Origin: Caldilineaceae bacterium SB0661_bin_32 | GTDB taxonomy: Bacteria; Chloroflexota; Anaerolineae; Caldilineales; Caldilineaceae | Assembly (NCBI GenBank): GCA_009841235.1 | Contig: VXMH01000051.1 | Coordinates: 1-64,000, forward strand | Direction: 5' to 3' | DNA length: 64,000 bases | Shown here: one piece after another, positions 10,988 through 59,561 of the stretch | Layout of the letters: each line of letters starts with the position of its first letter | How positions within the stretch are numbered: position 1 is the first letter of the stretch | The notes under the pieces: model-generated | The model's input: only the letters and a program-made list of their open reading frames with translations | What the model was told of the DNA's origin: nothing | The model's database searches: none | Position numbers and translations under genes: made by a program

Positions 10988-12247
10988 ATGAGAACCGTAG
11001 CAATGATCCTGGCTGGCGGAGAGGGCACTCGTCTGACAGTTCTGTCCGAAAAAAGGGCCAAACCCGCGGTTCCATTCGCCGGCAAATTTCGCATCATCGA
11101 TTTCACGATCAGCAACTGCGTCAATAGCGGTATCTACTCCGTCGGTGTTCTCACCCAGTACCGTCCCCACAGTCTCAACGAGCACATCGGCATCGGTAAA
11201 CCGTGGGATCTCGACCGTCAGCACGGCGGCATCCGCCTCTTGCAGCCGTTTCAGGGCCGCGGCGAACAGGACTGGTATGCCGGCACGGCCGACGCGATCC
11301 TGCAGAATCTGAACTTTCTCGCCGAACACAACGCCGACACCGCCCTGATTCTCTCCGGCGACCACATCTATAAGATGGACTACGGCCCGATGCTGGCGTT
11401 CCACCAGCGCAAGGGCGCGGACCTGACCATCGCCGTAATGCCCGTGCCCATTGAGGAGGCGCACCGTTTCGGCATCATGGAGACGAACCCGGAGGATGAG
11501 ATCGTCCGGTTCCATGAAAAGCCGGAACAGCCGACCAGCAATCTGGCATCAATGGGCATCTATGTTTTTAACAGCCGGGTGCTGGAACAACGCCTGCAGG
11601 AAAAGGGCGCTGACGGCCCCCGGACCGACTTCGGCGAGCACGTCGTCCCCGCCATGCTCGCGGCCGGCGACCGCGTCTTTTCCTACCCTTTCACCGGCTA
11701 CTGGGTCGACGTCGGCACCGTCGACGCCTACTGGAAAACAAGCCTCGAGCTGCTCCAATCCAACCCGGCTCTCGATCTATACACGGACAACTGGCCCATC
11801 TCGACACGCTCGGAGGAACGTCCGCCCGCAAAATTCGGACCCCAGTCCCAGGTCGTACAGAGCATGGTGTCCAACGGTTGCGAAGTCCATGGGGTCGTAA
11901 GAAACAGCATCTTCAGTCCCGGCGTCTATGTGAGCCCCGGCGCGGTCGTGCAGGACAGCATTCTCATGAACGATTCCTGGATCGGCCCCGGCGCACGCGT
12001 GGAACGGGTCATCATCGACAAACAGGTCATCGTCGGGTTCGGCGCCCAGGTCGGCTGTGCCACCTCCGACGCGCCCCCTCCCAATCAGCAGTTTGCCGGG
12101 AAACTGGACACCGGCCATACCGTCATCGGCAAGGGGGCCTTCATTCCCGACGGCGCCCGGATCGGCACCAACGTCATCGTCAACAGCGACCGGGGCGAAG
12201 AGGATTTTCCACCAGACTTCGTCGTGGAGGACGGGCAAACCGTATAG
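10988..12247 (+). CDS. glgC: Glucose-1-phosphate adenylyltransferase (ADP-glucose pyrophosphorylase)
   Basis: The 419-aa enzyme makes ADP-glucose from glucose-1-phosphate and ATP, the committed step of bacterial glycogen synthesis. It begins [16 protein letters not shown], the nucleotide-binding loop of the family, followed by [15 protein letters not shown] with the conserved lysine. [11 protein letters not shown] holds the metal-binding aspartate and the C-terminal third shows the left-handed beta-helix pattern typical of GlgC (hexapeptide-like repeats around [20 protein letters not shown]). The start at 10988 has GGAAAG upstream. A glgC-like paralog follows 47 bases later, probably in the same transcript. 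No other glycogen genes are in the window. Confidence 0.93.
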
Positions 12248-12294
12248 CTTTCGCACTGCGCGCCTACACGAACGGACCGCGAGGATTGTTCCCT

Positions 12295-13575
12295 ATGTCT
12301 TGTGCATTTGCCGTGATCATGGCCGGCGCCGACAACGCCGACCTCAGTGTCCTTACCGAAGTCCGCTCCGAGCCGGCCGTCCCCTTCGCCGGCAAGTTCC
12401 GCCTGATCGACTTCTCTCTCAGCAACTGCGTCAACAGCGGCATCCACAACGTCGCGGTGCTCACTCAATACCGCCCCCGCAGCCTCAACGATCATATCGG
12501 TATCGGCAAACCCTGGGACCTCGACCGCTCCAGCGGCGGCGTGCGCCTGTTGCAGCCCTACCGCGGCGGTCCTTACGGCGACTGGCAACGCGGCTCCGCC
12601 GACGCCATCCGCCGAAACCTGGACTACGTACTCCAGCAAAAGGAGGAGTGCGTACTGATCCTCTCCGGCAAACATATCTATCTGATGGATTACGGGCCCT
12701 TTCTTGAGCACCATCAGCGCAGCGGCGCGCCCGCGACCATTGCGGTCCGCCGCGTCAGCCGCCACGAAACCCATCGTTTCGGTATCATTACACAGGATAC
12801 GGACGACCGCGTCGTCGAGTTCCAGGAAAAGCCGCGGCGCACGCAGCAGAATCTTGCCAGCATGGGCGTCTATGTCTTCAGCCGCAACTTTCTCGTAGAA
12901 GTCCTGAGCAACGCGGGCGGCGATGACATCGGCAGGGACATCCTGCCGGGGCTGGTGGAACAAGGGCATGTCGCCAGCTACACCTATCCCGGATACTGGG
13001 CCGATGCCAGCACGGTTCAGGCCTACTGGGATGCCAATATGAGCCTGCTGGCTGAAGAACCGGCCCTCAACCTATATGCGCCGGAGTGGGTCGTGCATAC
13101 CCGCAGCCAGGAACGCGCCCCGGTCAAGCTGGGGCCCGCCGCAGACGTGGATGGGGCACTGTTATCCAATGGCTGTCAGATCGAAGGCGCCGTGGAACGA
13201 AGCGTGCTGTCCCCCGGCGTGCAGGTGGGCGAGGGAGCCGTCGTCCGAGACAGTGTCATTCTCAACGACACCGTCGTCGAAGCGGGCGCGGTCGTCGAGC
13301 GCTGTGTGATCGACAAAGAGGTGCGCGTCTGTCAGGACGCGCTCGTGGGCCACTCCGACAACAACAGCCCCAACCCGGAGCTGCCGGCCCGGCTCAACAC
13401 CGGCCTGACCCTCGTCGGCAAGGGCAGCGTCGTTCCCGCCGGCATGCGGCTAGGCCGTAATGTCGTAATTCATCCCTTCAGCGGCGCCGACGCATTCCGC
13501 AATGGCAATGACAATGACAGGGGCAAGGGCAATGGCGTCGAAAGCGGGACAAGCATCGGCCGCAATCTGCGCTGA
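12295..13575 (+). CDS. GlgC-like protein with altered catalytic motifs (probable regulatory/non-catalytic partner)
   Basis: This 426-aa protein is a clear paralog of the preceding GlgC along its whole length (for example [20 protein letters not shown] and [12 protein letters not shown] are shared). The active-site signature is broken: LAGGEGTRL of the neighbour is MAGADNADL here, SEKRAKP is TEVRSEP, and the metal-binding D of LSGDHIY is K in LSGKHIY. Known analogues are GlgD of Firmicutes and the plant large subunit, which form hetero-oligomers with an active GlgC. By inference this product has lost catalysis and modulates the neighbour. The ATG at 12295 is preceded by GAGG. The C-terminal tail is Asn/Asp/Gly-rich and repetitive, encoded by short GGCAATGAC-type repeats. 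Confidence 0.85.
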
Positions 13576-49925: not shown

Positions 49926-52900
49926 ATGCAAAACCAGTTCTTCAATCAACCCATCCTAAACTCCCCTTATGAGTACCCGAACCAGTACTGGGAACTCGAC
50001 CCCGACGGCCAGCCGACTCACCAGATCCTGAACGGCCGCCGCAGTGCCGAGTTCATTTCGCCTATACCCAAGCCGAAACTCACCAAGGTTTCGGCGCAGC
50101 AGGCCCGCCTCGAACTCAACAACGGCAGCGGCCTTTCCGACGAGGATCAGCTCTACGACGTTTCCGCCTCCGTCAATGAGATTCGCGGCCGCGTCGACAA
50201 CTGGCGGCGGCTTCCCAGCCCCAACAGCTGGGGCGTAACCCCCGAGACCGCCCGCCTCCTCCAACACTGGCGCAGCCACCACTTCAGCAGCTACCGCCCC
50301 TTTTTCTGCCAGGTCGAAGCGATCGAAACCCTGATCTGGCTGACCGAAGTCGCGCCGAAAATGGGACCCCAGGGTAGGCCCATACTCCAGCGCCTGAACA
50401 GCGCCAACAAGGAAGCCAACCCGGAGCTCCTGCGCATCGCACTCAAACTGGCCACCGGCGCCGGCAAAACCACCGTCATGGCCATGATCATCGCTTGGCA
50501 GACCATCAACGCCGTACGCCGGCCCCAGAGCGAGAACTTCACCCGCGGCTTTCTTGTCGTCGCGCCCGGCATCACCATCCGCGACCGGCTGCGCGTGCTC
50601 CAGCCTAGCGATCCCGACAGCTACTACAACAGCCGCGAACTCGTGCCCGCCGATATGCTCGAGGATCTCAAGCGCGCCAAGATCGTCATCACCAACTACC
50701 ATGCCTTCATGCCTCGCGAGCGGATGCAGCTCTCCAAGGTGGGTCGCGAGCTGCTGCAGGGGCGTGACGGCCAATTGAAGACGCAGGAGACTGAGGGCCA
50801 GATGATTCAGCGGGTCATGCCAGACCTGATGAACTTGAAGAACATCCTCGTCATGAATGACGAGGGGCATCATTGCTACCGGCGCAAGCAGGGCGAGGAG
50901 GAAGAGGATAAACCCAAAGGGGAAGACTTACAGGAAGCCAAGAAGAACACCGAGGCTGCCCGCGTCTGGATCACCGGGCTGGAGACGATAAAGCGCAAGG
51001 TTGGCATCTCCCGCGTGGTCGATCTCTCGGCAACGCCCTTTTTCCTGCGCGGCTCCGGCTACCGCGAGGGTACACTCTTCCCCTGGACCGTAAGCGACTT
51101 CTCCCTCATGGACGCCATCGAGTGCGGCATCGTCAAGCTGCCGCGCGTGCCTGTCGCCGACAATATCCCGGACGGCGACGCCCCCATGTACCGCTTTCTC
51201 TGGGATGAAATCCGGCCTAACATGCCCAAGAAGGGCCGGGGCAAGTCAGCCGGCCTGGATCCGCAAAACCTGCCGCTACAACTGCAGACCGCGCTCGAGG
51301 CCCTCTACGGCCACTATGAGAAGACCTATCAGTTGTGGAGCGTCGCCGAAATCCCTGTGCCGCCTTGTTTCGTAATCGTCTGTAACAACACTGCAACCTC
51401 CAAGCTGGTATTCGACTACGTTTCCGGATTTCATCGCAAAAACGAAGATGGTTCGACATCTCTCGTGCCGGGAAAACTGGAACTGTTCCGCAACTTCGAC
51501 GAGCATGGCAACCGCCTTCCCCGGCCCAATACAGTGTTGATCGACAGCCAGCAACTCGAGTCCGGCGAGGCACTCGACAAAAAATTTCGAGAAATGGCCG
51601 CGCAAGAGATCGAACAGTACCGCCGCGAAATTATCGAGCGCACCGGAGACAGGAATCTGGCAGACAATATCAGCGACCAGGACCTGCTGCGCGAGGTGAT
51701 GAACACCGTCGGCAAGGAAGGCCGCCTCGGCGGCTCGATCCGTTGCGTCGTTTCCGTCTCAATGCTGACCGAAGGCTGGGACGCGAACACAGTCACCCAT
51801 ATCCTCGGCGTACGCGCCTTTGGCACCCAGCTTCTATGTGAACAGGTCGTAGGCCGCGCGCTCCGCCGCTACTCCTATGAACTGAACGAGAAAGGCCTCT
51901 TTGGCGTCGAATACGCCGATGTCTTTGGGGTCCCATTCGACTTCACCGCCCGCCCCGTCGTTGTGCAGCCGCACAAACCGCCGCCAACTGTCCAGGTCCT
52001 GGCCGTCAGACCCGATCGTGACCATCTTGAGATTCGCTTTCCACGCGTCGCCGGGTACCGCGTCGATCTGCCCAAAGAACGTCTCTCCGCCGAGTTCAAC
52101 GAGGACTCGGTTCTCGAACTGACACCCGACCTGATTGGCCCGTCCCACACGACCAACGCAGGCATCATCGGCGAAAGCGTAGACCTAAACCTCGGCCACA
52201 CCAGGGATATGCGGCGCTCGACCCTCCTGTTCCATCTCACCAAGCATCTGATCAATACCAAGTGGCGGGACGCCGGCGCCGCCGCCGAGCTTCATCTCTT
52301 CGGCAGACTGAAACGCATCACCAACCAGTGGCTCAACCAGTGTTTGATCTGCAAAGGCGACGCCTATCCGGCCCAGCTCATGTTCGTGCCGCTCGCAGAA
52401 ATGGCCTGTGATCGAATCGCCGCCGCTATCACTCGCACTAACCTCGAAGGCAACATAATCAAGGCGCTGCTCGACCCATATAACCCCGTCGGCTCCACCC
52501 GCTTCGTCAACTTCCGTACCTCCAAAGCACTGCGCTGGAAGACCGACCCCAGCAAATGCCATGTCAACTGGGCTATCCTCGACAGCAATTGGGAGGGGGA
52601 ATTCTGCCGCGTCGCCGAGGGACATCCTCGCGTGCGCGCCTACGTCAAGAACCACAGTCTGGGCTTCACCGTCCCCTACAAGCACGGGTCGGCCAATCGC
52701 CTGTACATTCCAGACTTCATCATTCAGGTCGACGACGGCCGCGGCCCAGACGACCCCCTGAACCTGGTCGTCGAGATCAAAGGCTACCGCGGTGAGGACG
52801 CCAAGGAAAAGAAGACAACGATGGAGACCTACTGGGTGCCGGGTGTTAACGCCGCCGGCGAGTTCGGCCGCTGGGCGTTCACAGAGTTTACCGACGTGTA

Positions 52901-52976
52901 CGAAATTGGAGGGGACTTCGCAGCCGGAGTGAAAGCGTCTTTCCACGATACAATTGAAAAAAGCGTGGGCCCCTAA
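49926..52976 (+). CDS. Type III-like restriction enzyme subunit (SF2 helicase-nuclease, BPTD_3080-like)
   Basis: The 1016-aa product is an SF2 helicase-nuclease. Walker A is ATGAGKTT at residues 176-183, the DEAD-like box is LVMNDEGHH, motif III is VDLSATPF, and motif VI is LCEQVVGRALRR. The C-terminus carries the nuclease pattern YIPDFIIQVDDG ... LVVEIKGYRGED, that is PD ... E-x-K. It needs a partner methyltransferase, which is the gene at 54678. Between them three other genes are inserted, an unusual order for res/mod. The ATG at 49926 fits the promoter at 49847. Confidence 0.9.
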   Translation: MQNQFFNQPILNSPYEYPNQYWELDPDGQPTHQILNGRRSAEFISPIPKPKLTKVSAQQARLELNNGSGLSDEDQLYDVSASVNEIRGRVDNWRRLPSPNSWGVTPETARLLQHWRSHHFSSYRPFFCQVEAIETLIWLTEVAPKMGPQGRPILQRLNSANKEANPELLRIALKLATGAGKTTVMAMIIAWQTINAVRRPQSENFTRGFLVVAPGITIRDRLRVLQPSDPDSYYNSRELVPADMLEDLKRAKIVITNYHAFMPRERMQLSKVGRELLQGRDGQLKTQETEGQMIQRVMPDLMNLKNILVMNDEGHHCYRRKQGEEEEDKPKGEDLQEAKKNTEAARVWITGLETIKRKVGISRVVDLSATPFFLRGSGYREGTLFPWTVSDFSLMDAIECGIVKLPRVPVADNIPDGDAPMYRFLWDEIRPNMPKKGRGKSAGLDPQNLPLQLQTALEALYGHYEKTYQLWSVAEIPVPPCFVIVCNNTATSKLVFDYVSGFHRKNEDGSTSLVPGKLELFRNFDEHGNRLPRPNTVLIDSQQLESGEALDKKFREMAAQEIEQYRREIIERTGDRNLADNISDQDLLREVMNTVGKEGRLGGSIRCVVSVSMLTEGWDANTVTHILGVRAFGTQLLCEQVVGRALRRYSYELNEKGLFGVEYADVFGVPFDFTARPVVVQPHKPPPTVQVLAVRPDRDHLEIRFPRVAGYRVDLPKERLSAEFNEDSVLELTPDLIGPSHTTNAGIIGESVDLNLGHTRDMRRSTLLFHLTKHLINTKWRDAGAAAELHLFGRLKRITNQWLNQCLICKGDAYPAQLMFVPLAEMACDRIAAAITRTNLEGNIIKALLDPYNPVGSTRFVNFRTSKALRWKTDPSKCHVNWAILDSNWEGEFCRVAEGHPRVRAYVKNHSLGFTVPYKHGSANRLYIPDFIIQVDDGRGPDDPLNLVVEIKGYRGEDAKEKKTTMETYWVPGVNAAGEFGRWAFTEFTDVYEIGGDFAAGVKASFHDTIEKSVGP

Positions 52977-53212: not shown

Positions 53213-53998
53213 ATGACCATCGATTCCGATGCCCTTCGAAGCCTGCTCTGCGAGCGTCTCTGCGAAGACGTCAGAGTCGACGCGCGCCCCGACGGTGACT
53301 TAATGCTGCGCACGCACTTCGAGTTCCCCGACGGGGACCGCTACCCTATCCACTTGTCTGAAGCGGCTTCAGGCGGACTGCGTCTGTCCGACCGCGGGCA
53401 TACGCTCATGCACATCAGCTACGAGCATGACATCGACTCGTTAATGGACGGAACCCGTGGGATGCTTCTCGAGCGCATTATGGGCGAGACCGGACTAAGT
53501 TGGGACGGTGACGGGGGAGCATTTTGTCTGGATACCCCGCCGGAACGCCTGCCAGAGGCACTCTTCACCTTCGGACAAGCGTTGACCCGCGTCTATGATC
53601 TGACGCTGCTCTCGCATACTAACGTGGGCTCCACCTTTTATGACGATTTGGCCGACCTCCTGTCCAGCCGGATAGATGAGGCAAAAATCGAACGCGACTA
53701 TCTGCCACCTGTTCCCAATGCCCAGGCCTATCCGGTGGATTACCGCATCGAAGGCAAGAGCGGGGATCCGCTGTTCCTCTACGGCGTGCCCAATCGCGAC
53801 AAAGCGCGACTGACGACGATAATGCTATCCTACTTCCATAGGCATGATCTCCGCTTCGAATCGATCCTCGTCTTCGCGGACCAGACCGAGATCCCGCGCA
53901 TGGATCTGGCGCGACTCTCCGACGTGGGCGGCGGTATGATCTCGTCGCCGGCCGCGCATGAAGACCTGAATCGCAAGCTCCTGCAGCGCGCGGCATGA
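53213..53998 (+). CDS. DUF1828/DUF1829 domain-containing protein
   Basis: The 261-aa product looks like a DUF1828 protein at the N-terminus (residues about 30-115, with PIHLSEAASGGLRLSDRGHT) followed by a DUF1829-like part (residues about 165-250, LFLYGVPNRDKARLTTIMLS ... ILVFADQTEIPRMDLARLSD). The assignment is from memory of the family. No biochemical function is established. Such proteins are often seen near phage, plasmid and defence genes. Its stop overlaps the mntA start by four bases, so the two are coupled. It lies 236 bases after the restriction gene. Confidence 0.72.
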   Translation: MTIDSDALRSLLCERLCEDVRVDARPDGDLMLRTHFEFPDGDRYPIHLSEAASGGLRLSDRGHTLMHISYEHDIDSLMDGTRGMLLERIMGETGLSWDGDGGAFCLDTPPERLPEALFTFGQALTRVYDLTLLSHTNVGSTFYDDLADLLSSRIDEAKIERDYLPPVPNAQAYPVDYRIEGKSGDPLFLYGVPNRDKARLTTIMLSYFHRHDLRFESILVFADQTEIPRMDLARLSDVGGGMISSPAAHEDLNRKLLQRAA

Positions 53999-54312
53999 CC
54001 GGCCAGGCTCGCGGTACAACCATGACCAGGGACGAAGTTCTTGCCCTGCTGCGCGCCCATAAGGCGACGCTCTCGCAACGCTTTGGCGTCACCGAAATCG
54101 CGCTGTTCGGATCCTTTGCCCGCGACCAAGCTGCTGGCGAGAGCGACGTGGATATACTTGTGCGGTTCGACCGACCGGCCACGTCGGACACTTACTTCGG
54201 TACCCAGTTCTATATCGAAGACCTGCTCGGCCTCCAGGTTGACCTAGTTACCGACAAGGCGTTGCGCGTGGAGCTGCGCCCCTACGTGGAACGGGAGGCC
54301 GTCAGTGTCTGA
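53995..54312 (+). CDS. mntA: MntA-type nucleotidyltransferase antitoxin (MNT domain)
   Basis: The 105-aa product has the minimal nucleotidyltransferase fold. The catalytic GSX10DXD motif is present and correctly spaced: ALFGSFARDQAAGESDVDI, with GS followed by ten residues and D-V-D. Known MntA antitoxins adenylylate the tyrosine of the partner HepT. Its start overlaps the stop of the DUF1828 gene by four bases (ATGA), and its stop overlaps hepT by eight bases. Confidence 0.88.
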   Translation: MTGQARGTTMTRDEVLALLRAHKATLSQRFGVTEIALFGSFARDQAAGESDVDILVRFDRPATSDTYFGTQFYIEDLLGLQVDLVTDKALRVELRPYVEREAVSV

Positions 54313-54673
54313 CGGCGGCCGCGAAGCCCGCAGCTGGCGCTTCTACATTCAAGACATGATCGAGTTCAGTGAAAGAGTCCTGGACTACACTGCAGGACTG
54401 GACCAGGAAACCTTCGTAGCGGACCAGTTCACTTACGACGCTACCCTGCGCAATCTTGAACTGATCGGAGAGGCGGCAACCCATGTCCCCAACGAAGCGC
54501 GCGCAGCACACCCGGAAATTCAGTGGCGTCGCATAATCGGGACGCGCAACCGCGTGGCCCATGCCTATCTGGGATTGGACGATGACGTTATCTGGGACAT
54601 CATCCGCACCGACATCCCCAATCTCCTGCCCGCATTACGAAACCTGTTGGACAAAACAAGTGAGGATAGCTAA
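54305..54673 (+). CDS. hepT: HepT-type HEPN RNase toxin
   Basis: The 122-aa helical product is a HEPN/DUF86 protein. The catalytic and adenylylation motif RX4HXY is intact: RNRVAHAY. In characterised pairs the tyrosine of this motif is adenylylated by MntA and the RNase is thereby silenced. It starts with GTG within mntA and ends four bases before the methyltransferase ATG. Translation of the toxin and of Mod is therefore likely to be coupled. Confidence 0.88.
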   Translation: MSDGGREARSWRFYIQDMIEFSERVLDYTAGLDQETFVADQFTYDATLRNLELIGEAATHVPNEARAAHPEIQWRRIIGTRNRVAHAYLGLDDDVIWDIIRTDIPNLLPALRNLLDKTSEDS

Positions 54674-54677
54674 GTAG

Positions 54678-57455
54678 ATGCCGAAGCAGAAGAAAAAGAA
54701 GACCGTCGATACGATCCGCCACGAAGACGCCACCCGCAAAAACCTTCCCAGCGCCGAACACCAACCCCTCATGCAGGAAGAAGACCAATCCCCCCTCCGC
54801 GTCGCCTACGAACGCCGCAACCGCGACCTTGACCCGCAGCTCGTCTGGCGCGGCAAAGACGAGCAGGACTGGTCCGACCTCGTCGTCAACGTGCCGCCTC
54901 TCTACATCCAGGAGCGCGTCCATCCCAAGGTCCTCGTCGACGACCTGATGCACCAGAGCGAGCAGGCCCGCCGCGCACAGGAAAACAACATCCAGCCCGG
55001 CTTCGCCGATCTATTCGCCGACTTCAATGGCCTGCCCTCCGAGGACGCCAAAACCGAGTTCTACCAGCACGACGCCAACTGGTCCAACCGCATGGTCCTC
55101 GGCGACAGCCTCCAGGTCATGGCTTCCCTCGCCGAGCGCGAAGGTCTGCGCGGCAAGGTGCAGTGCATCTACATCGACCCGCCCTACGGCATCAAGTTCA
55201 ACTCCAACTTCCAGTGGTCCACCACCAGTCGAGTTGTGCGCGACGGCAAGGCCGACCACATCACCCGCGAGCCTGAGCAGGTAAAGGCATTCCGCGACAC
55301 CTGGCGAGACGGCATCCACTCATACCTGACCTATCTGCGCGACCGCCTGACCGTAGCGCGCGATCTGCTGGCAGAAAGCGGTTCAATCTTCGTGCAGATC
55401 GGGGATGAAAATGTTCACCTTGTGCGTGCGCTCATGGATGAGGTGTTTGGCTCTGAGAATTACGTCACTTCGATATCATTCTTCAAGACAGGTGCTCAAA
55501 CCAGTTCTATCTTGCCTCAAAACTCAGACACAATTTTGTGGTATTCAAGCGTGCGTGAACGCATAAAGACAAGACGTCTATTCAACGCTGACGGTGGTTG
55601 GGTTGCTAGAGCAACCAGCAGATGGAGCCGGAGCGGAGAGGGGATCTTCAGTCGGGCAAGTGACGAACCTACAAGCTCTTGGACTCATCGAGCTCTAGAA
55701 TCAAACACGGGAAGTGAAGCAAGTCGGTTTCCTGTCTTCTTCAATGGAAACACGTTTGCCCCAAAGCGCGGTTGGTCCACTTCTCCTGTCGGAATGTTGC
55801 GTCTTACCAAGGCTCACCGAGTCTTGCAAGTTCGGTCGAATATTCGGTATGCCGCCTCAGCCGAGGACTTTCCGTTTTCCTACTTCACCAGCACTTGGGT
55901 CGACACTGGAACGGGTTCGTTCGGCGACCAGCAGGTCTATGTTGTCCAAACCACTGGAAAGGTCATTCAACGCTGCATCCTGATGACCACCGACCCCGGC
56001 GATCTCGTCCTTGACCCCACCTGTGGCTCCGGCACTACCGCCTACGTCGCCGAGCAGTGGGGTCGCCGCTGGATCACGATCGATACCTCCCGTGTCGCCC
56101 TCGCCCTAGCCCGCGCCCGCATCATGGGCGCTCGCTATCCCTATTATCTGCTCGCCGACAGCCGCGCTGGCCAACAGAAAGAGGCCGAAGTCGAGCGCAA
56201 GGCCCCCTCAGAATCCCCCCGCTACGGCGACATCCGCCAGGGATTTGTCTACGAACGCGTGCCCCACATTACCCTCCGTGCCATCGCCAACAACGCCGAA
56301 ATCGATGTCATCTGGGAGGACTTCCAGCAAACGCTGGAGCCGCTGCGCGAGGGACTCAACACCGCGTTGGGCACAAACTGGGAGGAATGGGAGATCCCCC
56401 GCGAGGCCGAAGAAGAATGGCCCCCGGACGCGAAGAAACTGCACGATGGCTGGTGCCAGCAGCGCATCGCCCGCCAGAAAGAGATCGACGCCTCCATCGC
56501 CACCAAGGCCGACAAGGAATTCCTCTACGACAAGCCCCATGAGGACCGCACCAAAGTGCGCGTCGCCGGCCCCTTCACCGTCGAGAGCATCTCCCCCCAT
56601 CGCGTCCTCGCCGTAGACGAAAACGACGAATTCATCGAGACCTTCGGCGAAGAACAGGCCGGCTACGGCAGCGTCTACGACTTCGCTGCTATCATCCTCG
56701 AGAATCTCAGGACCGCCGGCGTCCAGCAGGCCCACAAGGAGGACCGTATCGACTTCACCTCCCTCACCCCCTGGCCCGGCCATCATGTCTGCGCCGAGGG
56801 CCGCTTCTTCGAGGGCGGTGAAGAAAGCGGCATCCAGCGCCGCGCCGCCATCTTCATCGGCCCCGAATTCGGCACCGTCTCCCGGCCCGACCTCGTCGAC
56901 GCCGCCCGCGAGGCCGCCGACGGCGCCTTCGACCTGCTCATCGCCTGCGCCTTCAACTACGAAGCCCATACCTCCGAGTTCGAGAAGCTGGGCAAGATTC
57001 CCGTGCTCAAGGCGCGCATGAACGCCGACCTCCACATGGCCGCCGATCTGAAAAACACCGGCAAAGGCAATCTCTTCGTGATCTTCGGTGAGCCCGACGT
57101 CGAACTCCTCGACGCGGAGGACAACCAGATCACAGTGCGCGTCAACGGCGTAGACGTGCTTCACCCCAACACCGGCGAAGTACGCAGCGACGGCCCCGAC
57201 GGGATCGCCTGCTGGTTCGTCGACACCGACTACAACGGTGAGAGCTTCTTCGTGCGCCATGCCTACTTCCTCGGCGCAAACGATCCCTACAAGGCTCTCA
57301 AGACCACGCTCAAAGCCGAGATCGACACCGAAGCCTGGGCATCCCTGCACAGCGATACTTCCCGCCCCTTCAACAAACCCGACTCCGGCCGCATCGCCGT
57401 CAAAGTCATCAACCACCTCGGCGACGAAGTGATGAAGATCTTCCGCGTGGAATAA
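54678..57455 (+). CDS. Type III-like DNA methyltransferase (Mod, beta-class), with a low-GC target-recognition segment
   Basis: The 925-aa product is a DNA adenine or cytosine N-methyltransferase with motif IV DPPY at residues 167-170 (CIYIDPPYGIKFNSNFQW) ahead of motif I at residues 446-454 (LVLDPTCGSGTT). This order is the beta class of type III Mod proteins. The region between them, residues about 235-435 (55380-55985), is the presumed target-recognition domain and has lower GC and different codon use than the flanks. The C-terminal 400 residues (from about 500) are unusual and contain EIDASIATKADKEFLYDKP. It starts four bases after hepT. Confidence 0.9.
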   Translation: MPKQKKKKTVDTIRHEDATRKNLPSAEHQPLMQEEDQSPLRVAYERRNRDLDPQLVWRGKDEQDWSDLVVNVPPLYIQERVHPKVLVDDLMHQSEQARRAQENNIQPGFADLFADFNGLPSEDAKTEFYQHDANWSNRMVLGDSLQVMASLAEREGLRGKVQCIYIDPPYGIKFNSNFQWSTTSRVVRDGKADHITREPEQVKAFRDTWRDGIHSYLTYLRDRLTVARDLLAESGSIFVQIGDENVHLVRALMDEVFGSENYVTSISFFKTGAQTSSILPQNSDTILWYSSVRERIKTRRLFNADGGWVARATSRWSRSGEGIFSRASDEPTSSWTHRALESNTGSEASRFPVFFNGNTFAPKRGWSTSPVGMLRLTKAHRVLQVRSNIRYAASAEDFPFSYFTSTWVDTGTGSFGDQQVYVVQTTGKVIQRCILMTTDPGDLVLDPTCGSGTTAYVAEQWGRRWITIDTSRVALALARARIMGARYPYYLLADSRAGQQKEAEVERKAPSESPRYGDIRQGFVYERVPHITLRAIANNAEIDVIWEDFQQTLEPLREGLNTALGTNWEEWEIPREAEEEWPPDAKKLHDGWCQQRIARQKEIDASIATKADKEFLYDKPHEDRTKVRVAGPFTVESISPHRVLAVDENDEFIETFGEEQAGYGSVYDFAAIILENLRTAGVQQAHKEDRIDFTSLTPWPGHHVCAEGRFFEGGEESGIQRRAAIFIGPEFGTVSRPDLVDAAREAADGAFDLLIACAFNYEAHTSEFEKLGKIPVLKARMNADLHMAADLKNTGKGNLFVIFGEPDVELLDAEDNQITVRVNGVDVLHPNTGEVRSDGPDGIACWFVDTDYNGESFFVRHAYFLGANDPYKALKTTLKAEIDTEAWASLHSDTSRPFNKPDSGRIAVKVINHLGDEVMKIFRVE

Positions 57456-57494: not shown

Positions 57495-59561
57495 ATGGAA
57501 TTCCGCATCGCCGATACTTTCACCGATAGCCTTTCCAAGCTGACAGGCGACGAACAGAAAGCGGTAAAGACAACAGCTTTCGACATGCAAATAGATCCGT
57601 CTCGTCCGGGCCTACGGTTCCATCGGGTCGACCGCGCTCGCGACCCAAACTTTTGGTCCGTGCGCGTCAGCTCCGACATCCGTATCATCATCCACCGCAC
57701 ACAAAAGAGCCTGCTTCTCTGTTACGTCGATCACCACGACGACGCCTACCGCTGGGCCCAGCGCCGCCGGCTGGAAACCCACCCCAGGACCGGCGCAGCC
57801 CAACTGGTCGAGATACGCGAGACCGTCAAGGAGATCGAAGTCCCGGTCTACGTACAGGTAGAGAAGCTCAAGCCACTCCCCTTCGCCAAAATCTCCGACG
57901 ACGACCTGCTCAATTACGGCGTACCCGCCGAGTGGCTGCCCGACGTGCGCCGCGCCGACGACAACAGCCTCCTCGACCTCGCCGATCATCTTCCTGTAGA
58001 GGCCGCGGAAGCGCTGCTTGAACTTGCCACCGGCGGAACACCGCCACTGCCGACCCATACCCCACCCGAAACCGACCCGTTCGAACATCCCGACGCCCGC
58101 CGCCGCTTCCGCGTCATGCACGACGTGGAGGAGCTGGAACGAGCACTCGACTACCCGTGGGCAAAATGGGTTGTCTTTCTGCATCCGGCCCAGCGAGACC
58201 TGGTCGAACGGACTTACAGTGGGCCTGCCCGCGTATCGGGTTCCGCCGGCACCGGCAAGACCATCGTCGCCCTCCACCGCGCCGTCCACCTGGCGCGTAC
58301 CAATCCCGATGCCCGTGTTTTGCTCACGACATTTTCCGAGACGCTGGCCAATGCCCTCCGCAGCAAGCTGCGCATACTGATCAGCTCGGAGCCGCGTCTC
58401 GGAGAACGCATCGAAGTCTACGCCATCGACGCTTTGGGAGAAAGACTCTACCGCCTCAACCTGGGCAAGATCACGCTTGCATCATCTGAGCAGATTCACG
58501 AACGGATCGAAGAGGCGGCCGCGGCAGTCGGGGATAGCAGGTTCTCGACAGGCTTCATACGCACAGAGTGGGATCGGGTCGTCGATGCCTGGCAGTTGGA
58601 CACGTGGGACGACTATCGCGACGTACCCCGTCTTGGCCGCCGCCGCAGCCTGCCCGAAACGCAGCGCAAGGCCCTCTGGTCCATATTTGAGAACGTGCGC
58701 GCGAGCCTGAAAGCAGACGGGCTGATCACCCGCGCCCAAATGTACGGCCAGCTGGCGCACCGTTTTGACGAAACGCAGCGGTCGCCCTTCGATCATGTAA
58801 TCGTGGACGAGTGCCAGGACGTCGGCGTATCACAACTGCGCTTTCTCCGCGCCCTGGGCACCGACAAGCCGGACGGTCTCTTCTTCACAGGCGACCTGGG
58901 CCAGCGCATCTTCCAGCAGCCTTTTTCCTGGCAGGCGCTCGGCATCCAGATACGTGGACGGGCGCGCAACCTGAAGGTCAACTACCGCACCTCACATCAG
59001 ATCAGGAGGCGCTCCGATCTCCTGCTGGGGCCTGAGATCGCGGACGTCGACGGCAACACAGAAGTGCGGTCAGGCACGATCTCCGTATTCAATGGCGCTG
59101 AGCCAGACATCGTCGTTGCCAGCTCGGAAGAAGATGAGATGGAGACCGTCGCCGCATGGCTTTCGAAGCTGGCAGACGAAAACCTGGCTCCTGAAGAGAT
59201 CAGCCTCTTCCTCCGTTCATCCGACCAGATCGATCGGGCCACGGCTGCTGCCGAGAAGGCCGGTCTCCCATACACCTTTCTCGACAGCGACATACAGACG
59301 ACAACAGGACACATTTCAATCAGCACCATGCACTTGGCCAAAGGGCTCGAGTTCCGCGCCGTGGCCGTAATCGCCTGCGACGACGAAGTAGTGCCGCTAC
59401 AGGAACGGATCGAAACGGTCACCGACGGCGCCGACCTCGAAGATGTCTACAACACCGAGCGCCATCTGCTCTACGTAGCCTGCACCCGCGCCCGCGACCA
59501 CCTCCTCGTCTCCGGCGTCGATCCCGCCTCCGAATTCCTGGACGATCTGCAACTCATGTAG
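57495..59561 (+). CDS. UvrD/REP-type SF1 helicase with RelE-like N-terminal domain
   Basis: The 688-aa product joins two parts. Residues about 1-93 (MEFRIADTFTDSLSKLTGDE ... RFHRVDRARDPNFWSVRVSS ... YRWAQRRR) have the pattern of a RelE/ParE-type fold. After a linker (about 94-210) comes an SF1 helicase: Walker A VSGSAGTGKT at 249-256, DEAD-box VDECQD at 438-442, motif III FTGDLGQRIFQ, NLKVNYRTSHQIRR, STMHLAKGLEF and YVACTRARDHLL. It follows mod by 39 bases and is probably the last gene of the defence operon. The RelE-like part might act as a toxin or only as a docking domain. Confidence 0.85.
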   Translation: MEFRIADTFTDSLSKLTGDEQKAVKTTAFDMQIDPSRPGLRFHRVDRARDPNFWSVRVSSDIRIIIHRTQKSLLLCYVDHHDDAYRWAQRRRLETHPRTGAAQLVEIRETVKEIEVPVYVQVEKLKPLPFAKISDDDLLNYGVPAEWLPDVRRADDNSLLDLADHLPVEAAEALLELATGGTPPLPTHTPPETDPFEHPDARRRFRVMHDVEELERALDYPWAKWVVFLHPAQRDLVERTYSGPARVSGSAGTGKTIVALHRAVHLARTNPDARVLLTTFSETLANALRSKLRILISSEPRLGERIEVYAIDALGERLYRLNLGKITLASSEQIHERIEEAAAAVGDSRFSTGFIRTEWDRVVDAWQLDTWDDYRDVPRLGRRRSLPETQRKALWSIFENVRASLKADGLITRAQMYGQLAHRFDETQRSPFDHVIVDECQDVGVSQLRFLRALGTDKPDGLFFTGDLGQRIFQQPFSWQALGIQIRGRARNLKVNYRTSHQIRRRSDLLLGPEIADVDGNTEVRSGTISVFNGAEPDIVVASSEEDEMETVAAWLSKLADENLAPEEISLFLRSSDQIDRATAAAEKAGLPYTFLDSDIQTTTGHISISTMHLAKGLEFRAVAVIACDDEVVPLQERIETVTDGADLEDVYNTERHLLYVACTRARDHLLVSGVDPASEFLDDLQLM

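Follow-up and report, generated by a model that had tools for sequence, protein, structure and literature searches.

The window analysed here, 64,000 nucleotides of contig VXMH01000051.1 from Caldilineaceae bacterium SB0661_bin_32, contains a DNA methyltransferase gene, mod, with a middle part that is poorer in G and C than its ends. This raises the question of whether the target-recognition domain (TRD) of the enzyme was exchanged by recombination, and whether its base composition can serve as evidence for such an exchange. The initial annotation, made from the DNA letters, had taken the base composition to suggest such an exchange. The observations on which it relied were accurate. Its two 60-base counts (26 of 60 G/C at 55501–55560 and 35 of 60 at 55141–55200) are exact, and the GC content of 0.507 at 55380–55985 compares with 0.613 for the whole window and with about 0.62–0.66 in the windows on either side. 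Segmentation of mod by GC3 gave a log-likelihood gain of 43.9 for the best supported low segment (Table 1), compared with a maximum of 8.2 in 20 permutations. The move to A/T-ending codons was confirmed at four-fold degenerate sites, where base use is A.27, C.23, G.17 and T.34 in the TRD and A.04, C.77, G.13 and T.06 in the far parts of the gene. The GC4 values for this genome are 0.75 in the host, 0.88 in the mod flank and 0.40 in the TRD. The range of 55380–55985 had been correctly placed over the TRD, although the segment that diverges between homologues is slightly narrower (aa 261–420).

A drop of similar size (−0.31 to −0.37) was seen in three other ORFs when 29 greedily chosen ORFs of at least 300 aa in the window were compared. 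In these three the minimum is at the 5' end of a stop-to-stop frame and, where this was checked, outside the Pfam domain, and the drops are probably due to untranslated overhang. The frame at 11614–13572 has low GC3 at codons 52–212 of the stop-to-stop frame and a nucleotidyl-transferase domain that begins only at aa 233, and its low-GC3 stretch is probably also an untranslated overhang.

The identity of Mod as a relative of known type III methyltransferases was indicated by its PADLOC assignment and by the PDB chains returned in a search (6k0w, 4zcf and 7dsu), and the protein carries a Pfam N6_N4_Mtase domain. In EcoP15I-class enzymes the TRD is located between motifs IV and I. The same order was found in the window's Mod, where the variable region lies between the two motifs, and the protein resembles EcoP15I Mod (4zcf) in its N-terminal catalytic part as well as in this arrangement. 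It differs from EcoP15I Mod in its length, with 925 aa and a long C-terminal part compared to 644 aa, and in its pairing with a BPTD_3080-family Res. From the position between motifs IV and I and the similarity to EcoP15I Mod, residues 261–420 are predicted to be the TRD. The predicted structure of Mod had a mean pLDDT of 47 and was set aside. The neighbouring Res contains the helicase/ATPase domain of a type III partner; it matched NF046055 with 1333 bits, above the cut-off of 800, and the PADLOC REase_III models weakly, with 21 bits. Between res and mod lie a DUF1828 gene and an MNT/HEPN pair (Pfam).

Table 1. Features of the mod locus, with positions in the window.
Feature	Position	Strand	Evidence or measure
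res, BPTD_3080-family restriction endonuclease, partner of Mod	49926..52976	+	NCBIfam NF046055, Pfam ResIII
mod, type III-like DNA methyltransferase, 925 aa	54678..57455	+	PADLOC MTase_III PDLC03632, 1357 bits
Motif IV, DPPY (aa 167–170)	55176..55187	+	Invariant in 30-sequence alignment
Upstream conserved flank with raised four-fold divergence (aa 191–260)	55248..55457	+	Divergence 0.33–0.78 vs about 0.1–0.2 further out
Low-GC3 segment, best supported in mod	55353..55970	+	GC3 0.51 vs 0.84 elsewhere
Predicted target-recognition cassette (aa 261–420), almost certainly exchanged in place	55458..55937	+	Identity drop, syntenic-alignment hole
Downstream conserved flank with raised four-fold divergence (aa 421–500)	55938..56177	+	Four-fold divergence, GC3 residual
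Motif I, LDPTCGSGT (aa 445–453)	56010..56036	+	(Near-)invariant in 30-sequence alignment
UvrD-like helicase gene, 3' of mod	57495..59561	+	Pfam UvrD; kept in L276–L278

When the window was aligned with three genomes of the same genus (L276–L278), the locus was found to be syntenic in all four, with a nucleotide identity of about 81–92% through the locus and alignments that span res, mod and then the downstream heme A synthase and farnesyltransferase-like genes. Further gaps occur between genes and at the MNT/HEPN pair. Within mod they contain a single hole of about 470 bp, located at 55450–55920, 55450–55963 or 55430–55920 depending on the genome. Comparison with the Mods L002–L004 gave an amino-acid identity of about 95% outside aa 261–420 and of 5–40% (about 30%) inside, so that conserved ends and a divergent centre occur in the same locus, as in modA-like swaps. 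The TRD of L002, which comes from one of the three same-genus genomes, shares 75% identity with that of a Thermodesulfobacteriota MAG (L026) and 30% with that of the window, while its flanks rank in the opposite order, with 94% identity to the window and 81% to L026. One TRD is thus found with different flanks, as in a domain swap. A search for a close copy of the window's own TRD gave a best match of 41%.

Synonymous divergence is also raised in the conserved sequence next to the cassette. At four-fold sites it reaches 0.3–0.8 at aa 191–262 and mostly 0.2–0.5 at aa 421–500, with higher values at 421–435, compared with roughly 0.1–0.3 in most of the remaining gene. The upstream flank (aa 191–260) was probably dragged along with the cassette or is linked to it. 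Near-flank divergence exceeded far-flank divergence in 25 of 29 close pairs (means of 0.39 and 0.23), which are not independent of one another. A very recent swap was found between L120 and L130, in which the far flanks are 99% identical, the TRDs are 31% identical and divergence extends from about aa 259 to aa 462. The hole at 55450–55920, the drop in identity and the raised flank divergence bear out the proposal that the segment between motifs IV and I was swapped as a cassette, and it is nearly certain that mod had its TRD exchanged in place, through recombination in the conserved flanks or close to them. With a TRD identity of about 30%, the swap would be expected to have altered the DNA site that is recognised. 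The locus is therefore a well-documented TRD swap in a type III-like system, and such a swap is of a known kind, the en-bloc exchange of type III recognition domains having been described previously (PMC3311624, PMC3983042). That the window's genome acquired the entire system recently was not supported, the locus being syntenic in four genomes.

The low GC content of the segment did not hold as proof of the swap. In a first set of homologues, GC3 was lower in the TRD than in the flanks in 87 of 88 genes. A wider set was then used, with a stricter definition of the far flanks and with genes from AT-rich hosts, cyanobacterial plasmids and viral contigs included, and the dip was present in 153 of 153 loci. 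These loci represent 147 distinct genes and 116 TRD types at 60% identity, from hosts that extend from AT-rich cyanobacteria to proteobacteria of 65% GC. Both GC3 and GC4 were lower in the TRD in 147 of 147 genes, a sample drawn by similarity to the window's gene and not phylogenetically independent. The mean deficit of the TRD was −0.28 for GC3 and −0.35 for GC4, and a deficit of −0.17 remained where flank GC3 was only 0.35–0.45. TRD GC4 followed the local background with a slope of 0.56. Compared with samples of the host genomes (one or two of 12–20 kb per host), TRD GC4 was lower in 11 of 11 and flank GC4 was higher in 10 of 11; in the AT-rich host of G070, host GC4 is 0.27 and TRD GC4 is 0.08. 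As the dip occurs in all homologues, those of AT-rich hosts included, low GC can neither date nor prove one import. It characterises the exchanged domain as such and is not the mark of a single foreign import. The condition that the initial annotation had named as refuting its proposal, homologues with the low-GC middle and no jump in divergence, had a divided outcome: the homologues share the low-GC middle, and the jump in divergence is present in them as well.

The synonymous composition of the TRD approaches even use of the four bases. At four-fold sites the family averages for A, C, G and T are.285/.223/.212/.279 within the TRD, compared with.089/.496/.297/.118 for the far flank. The TRDs of GC-rich hosts use the four bases nearly equally in 8 of 8 amino-acid boxes, and the far parts of the mods are mostly C-ending, with G and C used for Val and Leu. 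The dip extends as a gradient into the conserved flanks over about 60–100 codons, in a linkage-like manner. Upstream, the GC3 residual at columns of conserved amino acids is about −0.22 within 15 codons (6 columns), −0.05 to −0.08 at 15–60 codons and about zero beyond; downstream the residual starts at −0.36 (first 8 codons, two columns), stays at about −0.1 up to 40 codons and fades by 100–150. In the near flanks the declines of C and G are unequal and vary in sign (few columns), so that codon selection and biased conversion are inseparable there. An effect of sequence conservation was rejected as a cause of the dip, since variable windows of mod outside the TRD are hardly depressed, with a GC4 of 0.75 compared to 0.79 in conserved windows.

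Other recognition domains were examined as controls. A methylase that shares the motif order of Mod and has a conserved TRD region showed no dip, with nearly the same base use in the TRD region and the core. This control methylase (L247–L263) is of the beta class and was present as one copy in each of the 17 genus genomes searched; it is possibly a regulatory orphan methylase. The recognition domains of type I HsdS subunits are exchanged in other systems. In 20 HsdS subunits the TRDs had a GC4 of 0.52 compared to 0.75 for neighbouring ORFs, which were chosen by strand and size (same strand, at least 350 aa) and not individually identified as HsdM or HsdR, and were lower in 19 cases. They were also lower than all background ORFs in 19 of 20, and their four-fold use is even (.25/.26/.26/.23). 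The HsdS TRDs are thus like that of the window in being exchangeable, low in GC4 and even in four-fold use. HsdS differs in being a separate specificity subunit with two TRDs, and the likeness is one of composition.

Exchange within the family conserves mean composition, so the dip needs either a directional local cause or a constant AT-rich source outside the family. Our best reading, which we regard as about 50–60% likely (0.57), is that the TRD is a non-homologous, many-allele cassette in which weak synonymous forces fail. Different TRDs share little DNA homology, so that most other copies of the gene offer no partner for recombination inside the cassette. The alleles of one TRD type would make up a small class, isolated from the others and presumably subject to diversifying selection, and weak synonymous forces such as codon selection, and possibly GC-biased gene conversion, would be ineffective in it. 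The synonymous sites of the TRD would then drift to a near-even, slightly AT-rich use, while the constant part, recombining among all alleles, would keep its strong C-ending bias and the partly linked codons beside the cassette would be intermediate. As cassette and flank lie on one mRNA and have the same expression and location, codon selection at the level of expression cannot differ between them. We infer this population-genetic cause, and an expectation that follows from it was not borne out: copies that share a TRD type would be expected to be more similar at the synonymous sites of the near flanks, and they were no more similar there than copies that do not.

Four other explanations were considered. 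The model of the initial annotation, a recent import of the TRD from an AT-rich donor with its composition un-ameliorated, agrees with the exchange of the TRD, with a composition that differs from that of gene and host, and with the similar interpretation given to the low GC of modA12 (PMC3311624). We consider it very unlikely, as the dip is found in all 147 homologues, including those of AT-rich hosts such as that of G070, and TRD GC4 tracks the background, unlike the product of a single fixed source. A standing AT-rich pool, in mobile elements or hosts, that keeps supplying TRDs which are always partly un-ameliorated would account for a dip that is universal in the sample, for TRDs that cross phyla and for the related mods on plasmids and viral contigs. 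It is nevertheless an unlikely explanation: no member with such AT-rich flanks was seen (the lowest flank GC3 was 0.33), the window's TRD had no match in a phage collection, and the dip reaches family-specific conserved codons, which donors from the family would supply at normal composition.

GC-biased gene conversion alone, in which the homologously recombining flanks gain GC and the heterologous cassette does not, is likewise doubtful. The position of flank GC4 above that of the host and of TRD GC4 below it, together with the gradient towards the junctions, is consistent with such a process, and a link between recombination and GC has been argued for most bacteria (PMC4450053). Biased conversion should, however, lift G and C alike, and the flank excess is mainly of C (C.50, G.30 in the family; C.77, G.13 for the window's own gene), a pattern that resembles the outcome of codon selection. 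It is highly improbable that a constraint on protein or translation, either through the amino acids of the TRD or through slow codons required for folding, imposes A/T-rich codons. TRDs do differ in amino-acid composition, with more Y, S and T, and GC-rich hosts use A/T-ending codons less often, but amino-acid composition is ruled out as a cause by the four-fold sites of every amino-acid box, in which the dip is present. AT-rich hosts speak against rare-codon pausing, as their TRDs shift further to A/T and so towards the codons that are common in the host (in G070, A.37 and T.36 for the host, A.52 and T.40 for the TRD), and the methylase of the same architecture with a conserved TRD has no dip.

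Among known systems, the window's Mod is comparable to the modA phasevarion Mods of Neisseria and Haemophilus, which also have conserved ends and an exchangeable, lower-GC centre (PMC3311624). Gawthorne et al. (2012; PMC3311624) interpreted the GC content of modA12, 40/28/40%, as pointing to horizontal transfer, and the DRD of modA12 is conserved within the allele, with a diversity of 0.2% (PMC3311624). The low GC of modA12 was thus taken as a sign of acquisition, whereas here it is family-wide and accompanied by near-even synonymous use. In the type III Mods of Helicobacter pylori, which belong to a different Mod family, TRDs also move by recombination, at conserved motifs and beyond species boundaries (discussed in PMC3983042, which does not give the GC content of the TRD). 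A limited search of the open-licence literature found no paper that describes absent codon bias as a general feature of TRDs.

The interesting part of these results is the family-wide, nearly bias-free composition of the TRD. That exchangeable TRDs in general, in type III Mod and type I HsdS alike and whatever the host, are essentially without codon preference and have a linkage-like gradient in their flanks is a tentative proposal, to which we give somewhat less than even odds. If it is correct, each such gene would be a natural within-gene experiment on recombination, allelic class size, codon bias and GC. Comparison of cassette and flank could be used to test which forces determine synonymous composition in bacteria, the main difference between the two being homologous recombination with other alleles. 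Should the dip be a permanent feature of swappable cassettes, low TRD GC would be no evidence of recent foreign origin and the inference made for modA12 would fail.

Several minor features of the locus were also observed. In the constant parts of mod (54798–55278 and 56238–57438; aa 41–200 and 521–920) C occupies 77% of four-fold sites, compared with 40% in the host sample, and such a bias is unusual for a defence gene. The DUF1828 protein (53300–53998), encoded between res and the MNT/HEPN pair, has 92–95% identity in 3 of 3 syntenic genomes. The MNT/HEPN (HepT-like) toxin-antitoxin pair in the res–mod gap (53995–54673) is present in the window and in L278 and absent from L276 and L277, and on the Picosynechococcus plasmid pAQ5 (L174:5217–5961) another small pair (UPF0175, DUF3368) occupies this gap. 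As the small gene pairs differ, the gap may be an insertion hot spot. A gene annotated as a 3'-5' exonuclease comes after mod on a Pseudomonas avellanae plasmid, and this, together with the UvrD-like gene after mod in the syntenic genomes, suggests that the UvrD-like helicase may be a third component of the system. The first ~100 aa of this helicase have a weak likeness to RelE/HigB toxins (Pfam E 0.038, below the cut-off).
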